Source: Candidatus Baltobacteraceae bacterium
Lineage (GTDB): Bacteria; Vulcanimicrobiota; Vulcanimicrobiia; Vulcanimicrobiales; Vulcanimicrobiaceae
NCBI GenBank assembly: GCA_035502855.1
Contig: DATJTX010000031.1
Location: forward strand, 62,001 to 126,000
Direction: 5' to 3'
Length of the DNA stretch: 64,000 bases
The position numbers and the translations under genes are program-made. Of this stretch, positions 55,731 through 62,114 are shown in pieces (position 1 is the first letter of the stretch; the number at the start of each line of letters is the position of its first letter). The notes under the pieces are model-generated. The model made no database searches. It was given only the letters and a program-made list of their open reading frames with translations, and was not told the origin of the DNA.

Positions 55731-57785
55731 CTAGACGGCGGCTTTCGGGCTGACGCGGCCTCCCTGTACCGGATCGTAGCGCTCGTGCCGAGACAGGAAC
55801 GTTCCCAGGCCCTGGGTCCCGGTGCGCAGCTCGGTGATGTAGCGCGAGAGTTCGACCTGTGGAACATCGGCCTCGACCACGTCGAAGCCGATCTGCTCCG
55901 CCGGGTTCATTCCGAGAATTTGACCGCGCTTGCCGGTGAGCTGTTGGATGACGGTCGAGGTATATTGCGTCGGAACGGTGACCGTAACGCGCGAAATCGG
56001 CTCGAGCACCACCGGATGACACTTGGGCAGCGCATCGCGGACGCCCATGCCCGCCGCGGTCTTGAACGCCTGCTCGCTCGAATCCACATCGTGATAGGCT
56101 CCATCGTAGAGCGTCACGTGCACGTCGGTCACGGGAAACCCGTTCGGCCCATGCGTGAGCGCCTCGCGCACGCCTTTCTCTACCGCCGGGATGAATTGCC
56201 GGGGAACCACGCCGCCCACGATCTTTTCGTCGAAGCTTACCCCCGAGCCGCGTTCACGGGGCTCGAAACGCAGCCACACGTCCCCGAACTGGCCGTGACC
56301 GCCGGTTTGATGCTTGTAACGCGAATGGACCTCGGTCCCGGTTGTAATCGTCTCTTGATACGGAATCTGCGGCGCCGCGGTGTCGACTTCCACCTTGTAT
56401 TTGCGTGCCAAACGTTCGACGGCGATCGCGACATGCTGTTCGCCGCTGCCGAGCAAGAGCAGTTCGGCGGTGATTTCGGCTCGGTTCAGTTTGAGCGAGG
56501 GATCCTCGTCGACGATGCGCGCCAACATCGAGAAGATCTTGGCTTCGTCGATGCGCTCTTTCGGCTTGATCGCGATCGCGAAGCACGGCTCAGCGAGCGC
56601 AACACGCGGAAGCAGCACTTTATGACCGTTGCCCGTGAGTACATCGCCGGTTTTCACCGCTTCGAGACGGGCGATCGCGACGATCGCGCCGGGGCCGGCA
56701 TCGGCGATCGGCTCCTGCTTCTTGCCTTGCAGCCGATAGAGTCCGCCCGAGCGGACCTTCTCGCCCCCTTGCGTGATGTCGGTGAGCGTCGCATCGGATT
56801 TCAGCGTGCCCGAGAGCACGCGCACGATCGAGAGTTTCCCCGACTGCGGATGAATGACGGTCTTGATCACGTGCGCGATCGGCGGAGCCGCCGGGTCGGG
56901 TGCGATCGGACGGCCTTCGGCATCGAGCACGGGCGCCTGCGCGGGCGAGGGGAACCAGCGCTCGAGCGCGCGCATCAAGGCGGTCACGCCGGCACCGCTT
57001 GCGCCGGCGGCGACGAGCACCGGAACGATTTGGTCGTGCGAACACTCGCTGCACAGATCGCGCTCGACTTCATCGAGCGGCGGTTCAACGCCCTCGAGTA
57101 ATTCTTCCATCAGGTGATCGTCGAAATCGGCCATCGCCTCGAGCAATTCACCGTGTGCCTTACGCACGCGCTCGAGTACGTCTCCGGGCACTGCGCCTTC
57201 CCGCTCACCCTCGCTCTCGTACGAATACGCTTTCATATCGCACAGATCGACGTAGCCCGAAAATCCGCTCGTCTTCTCGTCCGCCGCCGAACGAGAGAAG
57301 AGCGGCCACTGCTCGGCGACGACGTGGCGACCGTAGAGCGATTGAAGCGCGGCGAGCGTACCCTCGAAATCAGCGCCCGGGCGGTCGAGCTTGTTTACGA
57401 CGAAGCAGTGTGGCAATTTCCGCGACTCGAGGTAGTCGACCAACGTTTTGGTTTGGACGACGCGAGCCGGATCGGCTTCGACGACGATCGCGGCGCCGTC
57501 GGCGCCGCAGAGGACGAGCTTGGTTTCTTCATAGAAATCGATGAAACCGGGCGCATCGATGATCGTCAGATCGACCCCGCCGCAGACACAGTGCGCGAAG
57601 CCTGCGGTCGTGGATTGCGCGTGCGAGACGTCTTCGGGTTCATGATCGGTGACGGTCGTGCCGTCGGAGATCGATCCGCGCCGTCCGATCGCGCCGGCGT
57701 GCGCAAGCACAGCCTCAACGAGCGTCGTCTTCCCAGCGTGATGCGGGCCGACAAAAGCGATGTTACGTTGCCGCTCGATGTCCAT
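55731..57785 (-). CDS. EF-G-like translational GTPase paralogue
   Basis: A 684-residue five-domain EF-G homologue. G1 is G-P-H-H-A-G-K-T (13-20) and G4 is N-K-L-D (131-134). G3 is D-A-P-G-F instead of D-T-P-G-H, so the His that positions the attacking water in EF-G is Phe81. This change is known to me from the EF-G2/EF-G-like branch, so it is not a mutation of the main factor. Domain IV (G-V-V-P-R-Q-F-I-P-A-V) and domain V (E-P-I-S-R-V-T-V) are present. It is the last gene of the sigma/MGMT operon, 15 bases after the PHP gene. Confidence 0.85.
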   Translation of the reverse strand: MDIERQRNIAFVGPHHAGKTTLVEAVLAHAGAIGRRGSISDGTTVTDHEPEDVSHAQSTTAGFAHCVCGGVDLTIIDAPGFIDFYEETKLVLCGADGAAIVVEADPARVVQTKTLVDYLESRKLPHCFVVNKLDRPGADFEGTLAALQSLYGRHVVAEQWPLFSRSAADEKTSGFSGYVDLCDMKAYSYESEGEREGAVPGDVLERVRKAHGELLEAMADFDDHLMEELLEGVEPPLDEVERDLCSECSHDQIVPVLVAAGASGAGVTALMRALERWFPSPAQAPVLDAEGRPIAPDPAAPPIAHVIKTVIHPQSGKLSIVRVLSGTLKSDATLTDITQGGEKVRSGGLYRLQGKKQEPIADAGPGAIVAIARLEAVKTGDVLTGNGHKVLLPRVALAEPCFAIAIKPKERIDEAKIFSMLARIVDEDPSLKLNRAEITAELLLLGSGEQHVAIAVERLARKYKVEVDTAAPQIPYQETITTGTEVHSRYKHQTGGHGQFGDVWLRFEPRERGSGVSFDEKIVGGVVPRQFIPAVEKGVREALTHGPNGFPVTDVHVTLYDGAYHDVDSSEQAFKTAAGMGVRDALPKCHPVVLEPISRVTVTVPTQYTSTVIQQLTGKRGQILGMNPAEQIGFDVVEADVPQVELSRYITELRTGTQGLGTFLSRHERYDPVQGGRVSPKAAV

Positions 57786-57800
57786 GCTGCTCTCCCACGC

Positions 57801-59399
57801 CTATCGGCGTTTGGTGGTTTTCTTCTTGCTCGTTCCCTTCAGCGGCTTCGAAGCCGGTTTGGCGACTTTCTTGACCGCCTTCTTCACGCCGGTTTTGGCT
57901 GCGCCGGCTTTTCGAGCCGGAGGCGCTTTTTTAACCGCACCCGGCTTCTTTGCCGGGAGCTTCTTGCCCGCTGCCTTCTTGGCGGGAGCCTTCTTGGCCG
58001 CGGCTTTCTTGACTGGAGCCGCCTTCTTCTTGATGGGAAGCGCCTTCTTGGCCGGCGCGGCTTTCTTGCCGGCGGCCTTTTTCTTGACCGGCGCCGCCTT
58101 GGCTGCGGTGATCTTTTTGACCGGTGCCGCAGCTTTCTTGACCGGCGCCTTTTTTGCCACCGCGGCTTTCTTGGCCGTGGTGGCTTTTGCGGCTGACTCC
58201 GGGCTTCGCTTCGAACTCGATTTGGGGGAAACCGCCGCGGTTGGGCGCTTGGTCAGGCGCTCCGGGCTGCTCGCTCGCTTTTTCGGGCCGAGGTCGCGCG
58301 AGGTCTTCGCGCTCTCGCGTGCCGCCCGCGGCGTAAGCTCGGGCTGGTCGGGCAGGCCGAGTTCGGCGCGGCCGAATCCGGTGATGCTGCTGCCCGGCTG
58401 CGCCGGCTCGGGAGAGCGCTGCGCCTGCGCTTCGAGATGTTCGCGCGTAGCACGCAGGACGACACGCGCCAGACGGCCGGCCACGGGGAAGACCACCTCG
58501 TTGATCTCGCATTCGTCCAGCATTCCCAGCACGACGTCGAACGCGCCGCCCTGATCTTTCGGACTATGCGCATCCGAACCGATCGCAATGCCGACGCCGC
58601 GCGCCTTGGCTTTGCGCATCAGGCGCTTGTTGGCGGCAATGTATTTGGCTCGCTGCTCCTCGTTCTCGGCGCGGTAGATCAGACGCGTGTTGACTTCCAC
58701 CGCCATGCCGCGCGCATGCGCGAGGTCGAGCAGCCGGTTCTCGTACCCTTCGAGTTTTTTCTCGTCGGGCCAATGACCCAAAGCCGCCGGTTTGTAAAAG
58801 TGGCCGACGATGTGCCCGGGCAGCTTTTCGATATCGTCGAAGAGACGGGCGACGTACAATTCCCAGGTCCGCTCGGTACCGACGTGGTCGTAGAGATGCG
58901 CGAATTCGGGATTGTCGTAGGGCCACATGAAGTCCGCGCCCTTCTCGGGATGATCGATCGGCAAGAAATGGACCGAGCGGATGATTCCGTCCGGTCGCAT
59001 TGCGTCGACGATGTTCTGCGCGTCCGGTCGCGCGCGCGGGTCGTTGTCGACCTCGGCGCCGATCGAAAAGCGCATGCCGCGTCGCAAGCTTTCGCCGACC
59101 ACCGCGGCATGAGCGACGTCGACCCCGGCGGTCTCGGCCGCGCCGTAGAGATCGCCGGCGTGGGCGAGCTTGAGCGCGCGGCGCACCGTGTGCACCGCGC
59201 CGGGATCTTCGAACGTGAGATAGTTGATGTGGTCCGTGACCATCAAAAAGCGCGGCGAATTACGCCGGCACGCATGATAGAACCAGAGGAAGAGCATCCG
59301 TGGCGAGTACGCGATGGGTCGTTCCTCGGTAAACGGACGATGTTCGCCCTTGGCGTGACCGTGGACATCGGGGATCGCGGCAATACGAGGGTCGCTCAG
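57801..59399 (-). CDS. PHP-domain phosphoesterase with histone-H1-like tail, probable CTG start
   Basis: The PHP metal site is complete only if the gene starts upstream of the first ATG (59297). The in-frame codons before it encode D-V-H-G-H, the first PHP motif, followed by V-T-D-H, G-A-E-V-D, G-H-F-Y, E-V-N-T and G-S-D-A-H. No ATG, GTG or TTG precedes D-V-H-G-H. CTG 59399 overlaps the upstream stop (CTGA) and has AAGGA 9 bases before it, so CTG is the likely start, giving 532 residues. Residues 1-330 are the phosphoesterase. The last 200 are a Lys/Ala/Pro tail of A-K-K-A and P-V-K-K repeats, like histone H1 or AlgP tails, and should bind DNA or RNA. Confidence 0.75.
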   Translation of the reverse strand: MSDPRIAAIPDVHGHAKGEHRPFTEERPIAYSPRMLFLWFYHACRRNSPRFLMVTDHINYLTFEDPGAVHTVRRALKLAHAGDLYGAAETAGVDVAHAAVVGESLRRGMRFSIGAEVDNDPRARPDAQNIVDAMRPDGIIRSVHFLPIDHPEKGADFMWPYDNPEFAHLYDHVGTERTWELYVARLFDDIEKLPGHIVGHFYKPAALGHWPDEKKLEGYENRLLDLAHARGMAVEVNTRLIYRAENEEQRAKYIAANKRLMRKAKARGVGIAIGSDAHSPKDQGGAFDVVLGMLDECEINEVVFPVAGRLARVVLRATREHLEAQAQRSPEPAQPGSSITGFGRAELGLPDQPELTPRAARESAKTSRDLGPKKRASSPERLTKRPTAAVSPKSSSKRSPESAAKATTAKKAAVAKKAPVKKAAAPVKKITAAKAAPVKKKAAGKKAAPAKKALPIKKKAAPVKKAAAKKAPAKKAAGKKLPAKKPGAVKKAPPARKAGAAKTGVKKAVKKVAKPASKPLKGTSKKKTTKRR

Positions 59400-60109
59400 C
59401 GTTCTACTTCCTTTACACCGCGGGGAATCCAGGTCGAGGACTTCGCCCCGACGCGAGGCTTCGACGATTCGGGCGTGCGCTGATCGACCCAGGGCGCGAG
59501 CACCTCGATCGTGATCTCGACGCCTTTTTTCATCAGCTCGAACGACATCGAGGGATTCGCCTCGCTTCCGGCGGCGATCGCCTGCGCGGGAAGGTAGGGC
59601 AGATGGAGGAGTCCGACCAGCGCCGGGGGGACGCCGTGCTCCGTGAGCGCCAGCATTTCGTATAGCGCTTGATTGCCGATAAACGTCCCGGCGGTATTCG
59701 AAACGTAGCCCGGCACGCCGGCTGCGCTCCAGGCCTCGATGATCTTTTCGAAGGGGAGATTCGAGATGCGCGCCTCCGGGCCGCCGCGAGCGACGACGTC
59801 GCCCTTGCGCATCACACCGACGTTGTCGGGAAATTCGAAATCCAGGATGTTGACGGCAACGCGTTCGAGTGAAAGCGCGGTGCGCCCCCCAAATTGAGAA
59901 AGCAGCAGCACGATATCCGGCTGATCGAGGAGCAGCGCCTGCTCGAAACGCTCGCGTACGTTGCGCGTTTCGACCGGGATGACGCGGGCCGCAATCGGCC
60001 GCCCGGACACGATCGCGCCATCCAAAGCGCGCGCGACCATCTCGCTCGGGTTGACCTTGTCACCGCCAAAGGGCTCGAAACCCGCGATGAGGATATGTTT
60101 AGCCACCAC
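59396..60109 (-). CDS. pyroglutamyl-peptidase I homologue lacking the catalytic Cys
   Basis: The 237-residue protein is a C15-family fold: G-F-E-P-F-G-G near the N-terminus, G-G-R-T...L-E-R-V-A-V-N with the catalytic Glu82, S-N-T-A-G-T-F, and the catalytic His169 in G-L-L-H-L-P. The nucleophile of active enzymes is Cys four residues after S-N-T-A-G-T; here it is Gly145 (codon GGC). So pyroglutamate removal is not expected, and binding or another role is possible. The start is one of two consecutive GTG codons (60109). It lies 8 bases after the anti-sigma/MGMT gene and overlaps the PHP gene. Confidence 0.8.
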   Translation of the reverse strand: MVAKHILIAGFEPFGGDKVNPSEMVARALDGAIVSGRPIAARVIPVETRNVRERFEQALLLDQPDIVLLLSQFGGRTALSLERVAVNILDFEFPDNVGVMRKGDVVARGGPEARISNLPFEKIIEAWSAAGVPGYVSNTAGTFIGNQALYEMLALTEHGVPPALVGLLHLPYLPAQAIAAGSEANPSMSFELMKKGVEITIEVLAPWVDQRTPESSKPRVGAKSSTWIPRGVKEVER

Positions 60110-60117
60110 CGCTTAGG

Positions 60118-60861
60118 TTAAAGCTTGCGTGCGGTGTAGCCTTCCATCTTGAGCAAGCGCGCCTTCATCTCGATTCCGTAGCCGTAGTTGTGGAGATCGC
60201 CTTGCGCGTCGACCACGCGGTGGCACGGAAAAAGCAGCGGGAGCGGATTGCGGGCCATCACCTGCCCGACCGCGCGCGCGGCGCGCGGCCGGCCGATCTT
60301 CGAGGCAACCCATGAATAGGAGCGGACCTCGCCCGGCGGGATTTGGGCAGCCGCCCGCAGCGCGGCCTGCTCGAACGGCGTCAGGTCCTCGATGTCGACG
60401 AACCGGTCGTCGACGCGCCACGTGGCAAAGAACTGCTCGAGCGTACGGCTGAGCCAGGCGGGCGCTTCGCCCGAGACGACGGGGCGCCGTAGGCGGCTCT
60501 CCACCCGTGCGCGCACCTGCTCGAATGCTTCCCCGGTGTCAATGCCGATGTAGGTGATCTTGCTCTCTTTGAAGCCGACGTAGAGGCGGCCGATCGGCGT
60601 ATGAGCGGAGGTCAATACGACCGGAGTCGTGCGCTCGCGCTGCCGGATCTGCGCGATGTGTTCGATGACGCTCTTCGCGAGATCGCACGAGGGTTCGGGT
60701 TGCGGCAAACAGGAGAGGCAGTAGGCGACGCCTTCGAACTCCTCATAGAGAGCCTGACAGTGCTGACAAGCGCGAAGATGGATGTCGACGGCTTCCTTGA
60801 CGGACTCCTGACAGTCTCCTCGCATCTCATCCCAGAGTTCTTCGACGTCACGACAGCGCAT
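60118..60861 (-). CDS. anti-sigma zinc-finger / O6-methylguanine-DNA methyltransferase fusion
   Basis: The 247-residue protein joins two known parts. Residues 1-40 are a zinc anti-sigma (ZAS) domain: Cys3, His28, Cys32 and Cys35 form C-x24-H-x3-C-x2-C. Extra Cys at 48, 51 and 59 follow in the linker. Residues about 80-247 are a full MGMT: the N-domain, then L-T-P-F-E-Q-A-A-L, P-P-G-E-V-R-S-Y, the Arg finger in R-A-V-G-Q-V, and the methyl-acceptor Cys213 in F-P-C-H-R-V. ATG 60861 lies 14 bases inside the end of an ECF sigma gene. The protein should bind that sigma factor and also repair alkylated guanine; the link between the two is inferred. Confidence 0.88.
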   Translation of the reverse strand: MRCRDVEELWDEMRGDCQESVKEAVDIHLRACQHCQALYEEFEGVAYCLSCLPQPEPSCDLAKSVIEHIAQIRQRERTTPVVLTSAHTPIGRLYVGFKESKITYIGIDTGEAFEQVRARVESRLRRPVVSGEAPAWLSRTLEQFFATWRVDDRFVDIEDLTPFEQAALRAAAQIPPGEVRSYSWVASKIGRPRAARAVGQVMARNPLPLLFPCHRVVDAQGDLHNYGYGIEMKARLLKMEGYTARKL

Positions 60862-61516
60862 GAACGGGGTCTCCTTCGGGGGCGATGCGTCCGATTTGCG
60901 GACCAAGTATGCGGCGTAGGATGCGGACCGCACGATGCACGTGCGACTTTACGGTTCCGATGGGTTGATGCAGGATCTCCGCGATCTCCGGATGGCTGCG
61001 GCCTTCGATGAAGCGCAGCGTTGCCGCCGCGCGCAGATGCATGGGCAGTTGTAAGAGCGCACGCTCTACCAGGGCAACCTCGGCGTTTTGCTCGACGATC
61101 GTTTCGGGCTGCGGCGGGCCGTCGTGTGACTCGCGCAGGAGCGCGTCGGGATCGGCGAGCGCGTCAAGCGCAACGTTGGTCGGACGCTTGCTGCGCAGGC
61201 GATTGCGCGTCACGTTGAGCGTGATCGTGTAGAGCCACGGCTGCAGGCGCAGATCGGCCCGCTGTTCGAGCGACATTTTGCCAAGCGCGCGGTAAGCACG
61301 CACGAACGCGTCTTGTACGATTTCCTCGGCGTCCTCGCGGTTGCCGGTCATGCGCAACGCGAAACCGTAAAGACGGCGCTGGTAGTCGTCGACGATCCGA
61401 TCGAAGGTTTCGGTGCTCGGCACGCCCCGTTCCGGCGTCCGATCGGACGGCGGTTTGGGCGGCTGGGCCGCTGGTGGCACGTGGACTCCCCGCAGGAGTG
61501 GTGCGAGCGCGCTCAT
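60848..61516 (-). CDS. ECF RNA polymerase sigma factor (partner of the ZAS-MGMT protein)
   Basis: A 222-residue ECF sigma with region 2 (Y-G-F-A-L-R-M-T-G-N, E-E-I-V-Q-D-A-F-V-R-A-Y, W-L-Y-T-I-T-L-N-V) and region 4 (L-P-M-H-L-R-A-A, I-A-E-I-L, I-G-T-V-K-S-H-V-H-R-A). The Pro-rich N-terminus (residues 1-35) is longer than usual. ATG 61516 is taken; a TTG at 61570 would add 18 residues. It heads the operon sigma, ZAS-MGMT, Pcp-like, PHP/H1-like, EF-G-like. It would recruit polymerase to a regulon when freed from its anti-sigma factor. Confidence 0.9.
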   Translation of the reverse strand: MSALAPLLRGVHVPPAAQPPKPPSDRTPERGVPSTETFDRIVDDYQRRLYGFALRMTGNREDAEEIVQDAFVRAYRALGKMSLEQRADLRLQPWLYTITLNVTRNRLRSKRPTNVALDALADPDALLRESHDGPPQPETIVEQNAEVALVERALLQLPMHLRAAATLRFIEGRSHPEIAEILHQPIGTVKSHVHRAVRILRRILGPQIGRIAPEGDPVHALS

Positions 61517-61654
61517 ACGCTGGCTCTTGACCGCTCTCGATACGCGCTGGGTTTCACGCTCGGCCGCCAAAAATCCTCAAAGTCGCGCCAGGGCCGGCGG
61601 CCACCGCGGGGAAACTCTCAACATGGTACACGACGTGCCGCACGCACCATTGAA

Positions 61655-61695
61655 TGACCGCCGGTCGCTTGAAGCGACGCGGCGGTCATTATTTT
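61655..61695 (+). terminator. stem-loop with T-rich tail in the leader of the gene at 61722
   Basis: TGACCGCC pairs with GGCGGTCA (61655-61662 with 61681-61688), and inside it GTCGCTT pairs with AAGCGAC. On the plus strand it is followed by TTATTTT, the form of an intrinsic terminator. As it lies upstream of a gene on the same strand, it may be an attenuator, or it may end transcription coming from the left. Confidence 0.45.
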
Positions 61696-61721: not shown

Positions 61722-62114
61722 ATGCACCGGACGATCGAGCCGACGGAGATCTCATTCGACGCGTACACGCTGTGCAGTTTTCTGCCGCAACTCGACTCGT
61801 CGCGCGCGATACCGTTGGTTCTCATCGGTTACCGTCGCAATCAGGATCCTTGGTTCGTCTGGCTCGTTCCGAAAGAGGGTATCAGCGCGGTCGGATTGAC
61901 CGACGATCCCTATTACGCCAAAGTGTTGCACGATCCGCATTCGTATTTTACGAAGAAGCTTTCGAAATACATCGAAGAGACCGGCAGCGTCAAGCGCGGC
62001 ATCGAAATGCTGATCGATTGCCACCAGAATCACCTGGCCTTTACGCCGGTGACGCACCTCTCGGAAATGCCGTTCACCCACCCCCTGGAGGTGCAGCTGG
62101 TCGGAGCCTTCTGA
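61722..62114 (+). CDS. hypothetical cytosolic protein
   Basis: A 130-residue protein without signal peptide. It opens with an acidic strand (E-P-T-E-I-S-F-D-A-Y) and has W-F-V-W-L-V-P-K-E near residue 45 and a Met/His-rich end. No family is recognised. ATG 61722 with GAGGG 8 bases upstream is preferred; an in-frame ATG at 61623 would translate through the stem-loop at 61655-61688. It is divergent from the alkylation-type sigma operon, with 205 bases between the starts, and may belong to its regulon. Confidence 0.55.
   Translation: MHRTIEPTEISFDAYTLCSFLPQLDSSRAIPLVLIGYRRNQDPWFVWLVPKEGISAVGLTDDPYYAKVLHDPHSYFTKKLSKYIEETGSVKRGIEMLIDCHQNHLAFTPVTHLSEMPFTHPLEVQLVGAF

Follow-up and report, generated by a model that had tools for sequence, protein, structure and literature searches.

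An ECF sigma factor gene of the Eremiobacterota is paired with a predicted zinc anti-sigma factor fused to a DNA alkyltransferase

ChrR, the zinc anti-sigma (ZAS) factor of the ECF11 pair RpoE-ChrR, carries a cupin sensor domain at its C-terminus. RsiW, the partner of SigW in Bacillus subtilis, is membrane-bound and its proteolysis frees the sigma factor. Ada of Escherichia coli, an AraC-type activator that controls its own gene, joins an alkyl-acceptor DNA alkyltransferase (MGMT) to a regulatory part and has a methyl-sensing zinc domain at its N-terminus. In the ECF12 pairs of Actinobacteria, SigR-RsrA and SigH-RshA, the sigma factor is autoregulated and a soluble ZAS anti-sigma factor is encoded with it; the regulon includes trxB, Clp proteins, a protease, cysteine and thiol genes and some DNA repair functions. 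Loss of RshA in C. glutamicum raises trxB, clpB, uvrA, a trypsin-like protease, a quinone reductase and a separate MGMT gene (PMC3489674), and benzoquinone, an electrophile, directly modifies RsrA in cells (PMC5288332). Finally, a review of ECF sigma factors describes group ECF122 as lacking an anti-sigma factor, as acting by an unknown mechanism and as having a gene for a 6-O-methylguanine DNA methyltransferase in its neighbourhood (PMC8999054).

Here we describe an operon from an Eremiobacterota-type genome, located in a stretch of 64,000 nucleotides (the window), in which an ECF sigma factor gene overlaps a gene that encodes a ZAS domain and an MGMT in a single polypeptide (Table 1). The open reading frames, the 14-base overlap and the ZAS and PCHRV motifs reported in the initial annotation were all confirmed by ORF coordinates, Pfam and alignment. 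The sigma factor contains regions 2 (57 bits) and 4 (48 bits) but, according to Pfam, no region 3, scores 95 bits against the NCBIfam model TIGR02937 (cut-off 42.9) and has SigW, SigH and RpoE as relatives in the PDB; it is closer to SigW/RpoE-type models than to SigR/SigH. The overlap of the two genes likely reflects translational coupling. The pyroglutamyl peptidase gene that follows is present at 61 of the fetched loci and is probably co-transcribed with the pair in the source genome, although it is not judged part of the switch discussed below. Rfam detected no RNA family at the locus, and checking did not confirm a terminator-like hairpin noticed by eye at about 61650-61690. The neighbourhood also includes a 130-aa gene, divergent from the sigma operon (61722-62114, plus strand), that has no Pfam or NCBIfam match and occurs at 71 of the fetched loci with identities mostly of 70-90%. 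Further along the minus strand lie genes for a protein with a PHP domain (histidinol-phosphatase-like), whose long tail is rich in Lys/Ala and resembles histone H1 (57801-59297), and for an EF-G-like protein of 684 aa with a complete set of EF-G domains (55731-57785).

Table 1. Features of the sigma/fusion operon in the window and loci of the second ECF-MGMT arrangement.
Feature	Position or locus	Strand	Details
ECF sigma factor gene	60848..61516	-	222 aa; ATG at 61516; stop included; Pfam Sigma70_r2 and r4_2
ZAS-MGMT fusion gene (predicted anti-sigma factor)	60118..60861	-	247 aa; ATG at 60861
Overlap of sigma and fusion genes	60848..60861	-	exactly 14 bp
ZAS domain, fusion residues 1-75	60637..60861	-	C3-x24-H28-x3-C32-x2-C35
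MGMT domain, fusion residues 81-243	60133..60621	-	PF01035
Cys213 codon	60223..60225	-	alkyl-acceptor cysteine in PCHRV (residues 212-216)
Predicted ECF autoregulatory promoter	61529..61556	-	TGAAAC-N18-GGTC; 12 nt 5' of the sigma ATG
Pyroglutamyl peptidase gene	59396..60109	-	8 nt 3' of the fusion gene; Pfam Peptidase_C15
Second-type loci, Eremiobacterota	L407-L411, L413-L416, L418-L422		
Second-type loci, Actinobacteria	L403-L406		
Sigma, MGMT and Ada zinc domain in one protein	L400:1820-3166		448 aa; Streptomyces sp. NBC_00212 plasmid

A survey of 149 genomes of the Eremiobacterota phylum recovered the full-length fusion in 93, namely 89 of the 99 genomes of the home family and all four of a second family of the same order, while five more hold a partial fusion at a contig end. 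Every home-family genome that is at least 90% complete has the fusion, and the operon is kept across dozens of genera. The 93 full-length homologues, in none of which the fusion is split into separate genes, rule out a chance fusion of reading frames or a frameshift artefact. By contrast, the 14 genomes of a neighbouring class-level family (f3) gave separate MGMT matches only, without the fusion. When ECF genes were looked for near the fusion in related genomes, as the initial annotation had suggested, each fetched locus that included DNA 5' of the fusion had one immediately before it, the opposite of the outcome that the annotation had named as counting against its proposal; the genes overlap by 14 bp at most loci, with overlaps of 11 or 0 bp or small gaps elsewhere. 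As gene order around the locus is broadly conserved, this adjacency by itself carries less weight than might be supposed.

Pfam recognises the MGMT alone and gives no match to the ZAS part in the N-terminal half, the NCBIfam anti-sigma models return weak scores (22 bits or less, none reaching its cut-off), and the AlphaFold model has low confidence over this region. These data would fit a repair enzyme whose N-terminal zinc knuckle has decayed or has nothing to do with ZAS domains (binding DNA or protein, for example), with the ECF sigma factor controlled in some other way. However, a profile built from 44 homologous N-termini matched the ZAS of RsiW (PDB 5wuq, E=1e-4) and that of RslA (PDB 3hug, E=0.0055); Cys3, His28, Cys32 and Cys35, and with them the C/H/C/C spacing, are invariant in all 86 fusion homologues compared; and the genes overlap and share an autoregulated promoter. 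Set against these observations, the zinc-knuckle alternative is very improbable. The N-terminal zinc motif, the relation to solved ZAS domains and the adjoining ECF gene are those of a soluble ZAS anti-sigma factor, and there is good support for reading the two genes as a sigma/anti-sigma pair under an autoregulated promoter.

The fusion differs from each of the ZAS factors with which it was compared. Of the solved ZAS domains that of RsiW is nearest, and the closest sigma structures include SigW, but ZAS-MGMT is soluble and carries an MGMT. Like RsrA and RshA, it is predicted to be a soluble ZAS anti-sigma factor encoded with its autoregulated ECF sigma factor; those proteins, however, have no MGMT domain, and a score of 13.7 bits against the RsrA family model (cut-off 62.5) places the fusion outside that family. 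With ChrR it has in common an N-terminal ZAS and a cytoplasmic sensor domain at the C-terminus, but the MGMT occupies the place of the cupin, and the ChrR model scores 15.4 bits (cut-off 124.5). An additional pair of cysteines in the ZAS part, Cys48-x2-Cys51, is present in ~80% of the fusion homologues and could be a redox element.

The C-terminal half matches the MGMT DNA-binding domain, PF01035, with 101 bits (cut-off 27). Cys213, His214, the Asn hinge (Asn205) and the active-site Tyr182 and Glu240 are invariant in 86 of 86 homologues, and the Arg finger, Arg196, is kept in 85 of the 86. The AlphaFold model is confident in the MGMT part (mean pLDDT near 90 for residues 81-170), and a Foldseek search of the PDB with this model returned 4wxd as the best match (E=5e-11), along with 1sfe and 1eh7. 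The invariant residues rule out a degenerate, non-catalytic MGMT of the ATL type, and on this basis the domain should be catalytic. Since the ZAS ligands and the MGMT residues are both invariant, the two halves of the fusion are each under strong constraint.

The motif G(A/C)AAC-N17/18-(G/T)GT(C/T) was found upstream of the sigma gene at 77 of 79 loci, ending ~9-12 nt 5' of the ATG. In form it matches an ECF promoter under autoregulation, from which the mRNA of the sigma operon would be nearly leaderless. A pattern search of the source genome recovered the site listed in Table 1. The targets predicted there are the operon itself, htrA, clpB, trxB, cysK, alkB and an efflux pump, and the list is extended in individual genomes by glutaredoxin, Dps, UvrA and by aldo-keto or quinone reductases. 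In pattern searches of 26 relatives the site recurred before the same genes, and a reversed control pattern gave far fewer matches. Because the motif came from the sigma promoters and then served to search for the targets, these first matches are not independent; orthologue counts, in which the motif had to end 9-16 nt 5' of the start codon, are a fairer test. By this measure the motif precedes 18 of 23 trxB and 16 of 18 htrA orthologues and a minority of those of cysK (9/23), clpB (6/23) and alkB (5 of 30 genomes, being the source genome and 4 of 29 others), compared with a chance expectation, from dinucleotide shuffles, of 0.01-0.04 per gene set. In the f3 relatives, which lack the fusion, the motif was found before 0 of 10 orthologues.

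The regulon was derived from pattern and orthologue searches, and promoter motifs alone do not prove which sigma factor uses them. As predicted, it resembles the thiol-electrophile stress response of SigR/SigH with some alkylation repair, sharing with the RsrA/RshA systems, at the level of promoter predictions, genes of the thioredoxin system, thiol synthesis and protein quality control. A classical Ada regulon was rejected, as the promoter searches lead first to trxB, htrA and cysK. The repair regulon proposed in the initial annotation is retained in part: the MGMT itself, alkB in the genomes noted above and uvrA, once, belong to repair, but the predicted targets act chiefly in thiol redox and in the quality control of proteins. 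By analogy, the system may be a SigR/SigH-like response in which MGMT, a mere member of the regulon in Corynebacterium, has been built into the anti-sigma factor.

The preponderance of thiol and protein homeostasis genes also raises the possibility that the switch is redox-only, with the ZAS sensing disulfide or electrophile stress in the manner of RsrA and the MGMT being a co-produced repair enzyme that senses nothing. Such a view is consistent with the sensing of thiol oxidation by the ZAS factors RsrA and RshA (PMC3489674, PMC5288332), with the Corynebacterium MGMT gene, which lies separately and simply within the SigH regulon (PMC3489674), and with the possible redox activity of Cys48-x2-Cys51. 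It does not readily account for a fusion that is unsplit in 93 genomes, nor for the recurrence of related MGMTs beside ECF genes with an Ada zinc domain but without the zinc ZAS motif (see below). We regard a redox-only switch as a serious contender, if somewhat less than evenly probable.

Similar to Ada, the fusion links an MGMT that accepts alkyl groups with a regulatory part, but the latter is a predicted anti-sigma domain; Pfam found neither the N-Ada zinc domain nor an AraC helix-turn-helix in the protein. A full-length Rhizobium match turned out to be an ordinary Ada. An Ada zinc domain occurs in two proteins of the source genome (G000:C39:1239 and G000:C24:202157), and therefore alkylation sensing is present even without the ZAS-MGMT system. 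The N-Ada domain is patchy in the home family (30 of 99 genomes) while ZAS-MGMT is near universal, but its double occurrence in the source genome points to coexistence and led us to discard the idea that the fusion is a replacement for Ada. These observations bear on whether the system is a pure alkylation switch, in which alkylation of Cys213, or of the zinc thiolates as in Ada, would be the signal and repair of DNA alkylation the purpose. The invariant catalytic residues, the alkB sites and the Ada methyl-acceptor domain carried by a second operon type all agree with it; the coexisting classical Ada proteins, and the fact that the commonest predicted targets, trxB and htrA, are not alkylation repair genes, make it unlikely.

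In the second operon type, identified at 14 fetched loci of the same phylum, an ECF gene overlaps or touches an MGMT gene in whose product the MGMT is preceded by only ~30 residues and followed by an Ada-type Cys4 domain, without the zinc ZAS motif. The arrangement also occurs in Actinobacteria (Nonomuraea, Rubrobacter and two Streptomyces records), although the Streptomyces proteins have lost the Arg-finger segment of the MGMT. In a Streptomyces plasmid, sigma, MGMT and Ada zinc domain are combined in one protein, annotated solely as 'MGMT family protein', in which Pfam recognises sigma region 4. When 55 MGMT domains were placed in a tree, the 36 that are ECF-linked (ZAS-MGMT and second type, from two phyla) all lay on one side of a branch with 99/96 support, together with a single non-ECF member from Limnochordaceae (L056), and the grouping of the ECF-linked MGMTs as one exclusive clade was not rejected (p-AU 0.39). 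Ada, Ogt and the MGMTs of short-ECF operons from Tsukamurella and Arthrobacter lie on the other side. A distinct MGMT subfamily thus appears to accompany ECF sigma factors even without the ZAS motif. Because related MGMTs adjoin ECF genes that lack a zinc ZAS partner, the constant companion is the MGMT rather than the ZAS, which speaks for a regulatory function of the MGMT; that alkylation drives release of the sigma factor is a further step, which we infer.

The Tsukamurella operon, on a plasmid (L401:1411-4369), comprises a short ECF gene (156 aa), two MGMT genes, a 2OG-Fe(II) oxygenase gene and alkB; on an Arthrobacter plasmid (L402:1797-2971) a short ECF sigma gene lies beside an MGMT gene. 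These operons possibly represent ECF122. They have no ZAS and their MGMTs fall outside the ECF-linked clade, which speaks against orthology of the present system with ECF122. The locus described here has, as in ECF122, an MGMT near an ECF gene, but also a predicted anti-sigma domain, which ECF122 is listed as lacking.

Taken as a whole, the data are probably best explained by a soluble sigma/ZAS anti-sigma system with a SigR/SigH-like regulon, in which the MGMT is the sensor or effector half of the anti-sigma factor. The confidence placed in this explanation refers to the sigma/anti-sigma system and its regulon; the likelihoods given for redox-only and alkylation-only switching concern the signal, and overlap with it. 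At rest the ZAS domain would keep the sigma factor sequestered. Chemicals that alkylate or react with thiols would disturb ZAS-MGMT through oxidation or S-alkylation of the zinc thiolates, through irreversible alkyl transfer to Cys213, or both, and the sigma factor would be freed. It would then transcribe its own operon, supplying more sigma and fresh ZAS-MGMT, and turn on a cytoplasmic damage response comprising trxB, cysK, htrA, clpB and, in some genomes, alkB. The fresh ZAS-MGMT would repair O6-alkylguanine and, once the damage was gone, recapture the sigma factor and reset the system. The initial annotation is borne out in part: the sigma/anti-sigma pair, with an autoregulated promoter, is upheld by the promoter motif and the ZAS profile match, whereas sigma binding, repression, alkylation as the activating signal, release and the feedback loop are steps that we infer. 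A sensor role for the MGMT is nonetheless more than a guess, because the fusion is unsplit, the second operon type exists and the ECF-linked MGMTs group together. More specifically, the ECF-linked MGMTs, in both their ZAS-MGMT and MGMT-Ada-zinc forms, might be anti-sigma factors and single-use alkylation sensors that free the ECF sigma factor once irreversibly alkylated, a tentative proposal to which we give slightly less than even weight. If true, Eremiobacterota and Actinobacteria would possess an equivalent of the Ada response that works through a sigma factor.

To our knowledge, a zinc anti-sigma domain and a suicide DNA alkyltransferase have never been reported in one polypeptide. The claim that no such regulator had been described holds for the fusion, as no anti-sigma/MGMT fusion was found in the open-access literature searched, but not for the association of ECF and MGMT genes, already known from ECF122, the nearest case, with its neighbouring MGMT genes (PMC8999054). 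By analogy with ChrR, ZAS-MGMT would extend the plan of a soluble ZAS anti-sigma factor with a C-terminal sensor, and there is a fair chance that it constitutes a new class of alkylation sensing. It may also explain the MGMT genes in ECF122-like groups. For a soil phylum that has been little studied and in which genetics scarcely exists, the pair supplies a testable regulator together with a target promoter, and it may represent a new bacterial way to sense chemical damage. Were the MGMT the sensor, the signal would be the capacity for DNA repair itself and, with one inhibitor spent per repair event, sigma activity would count lesions.
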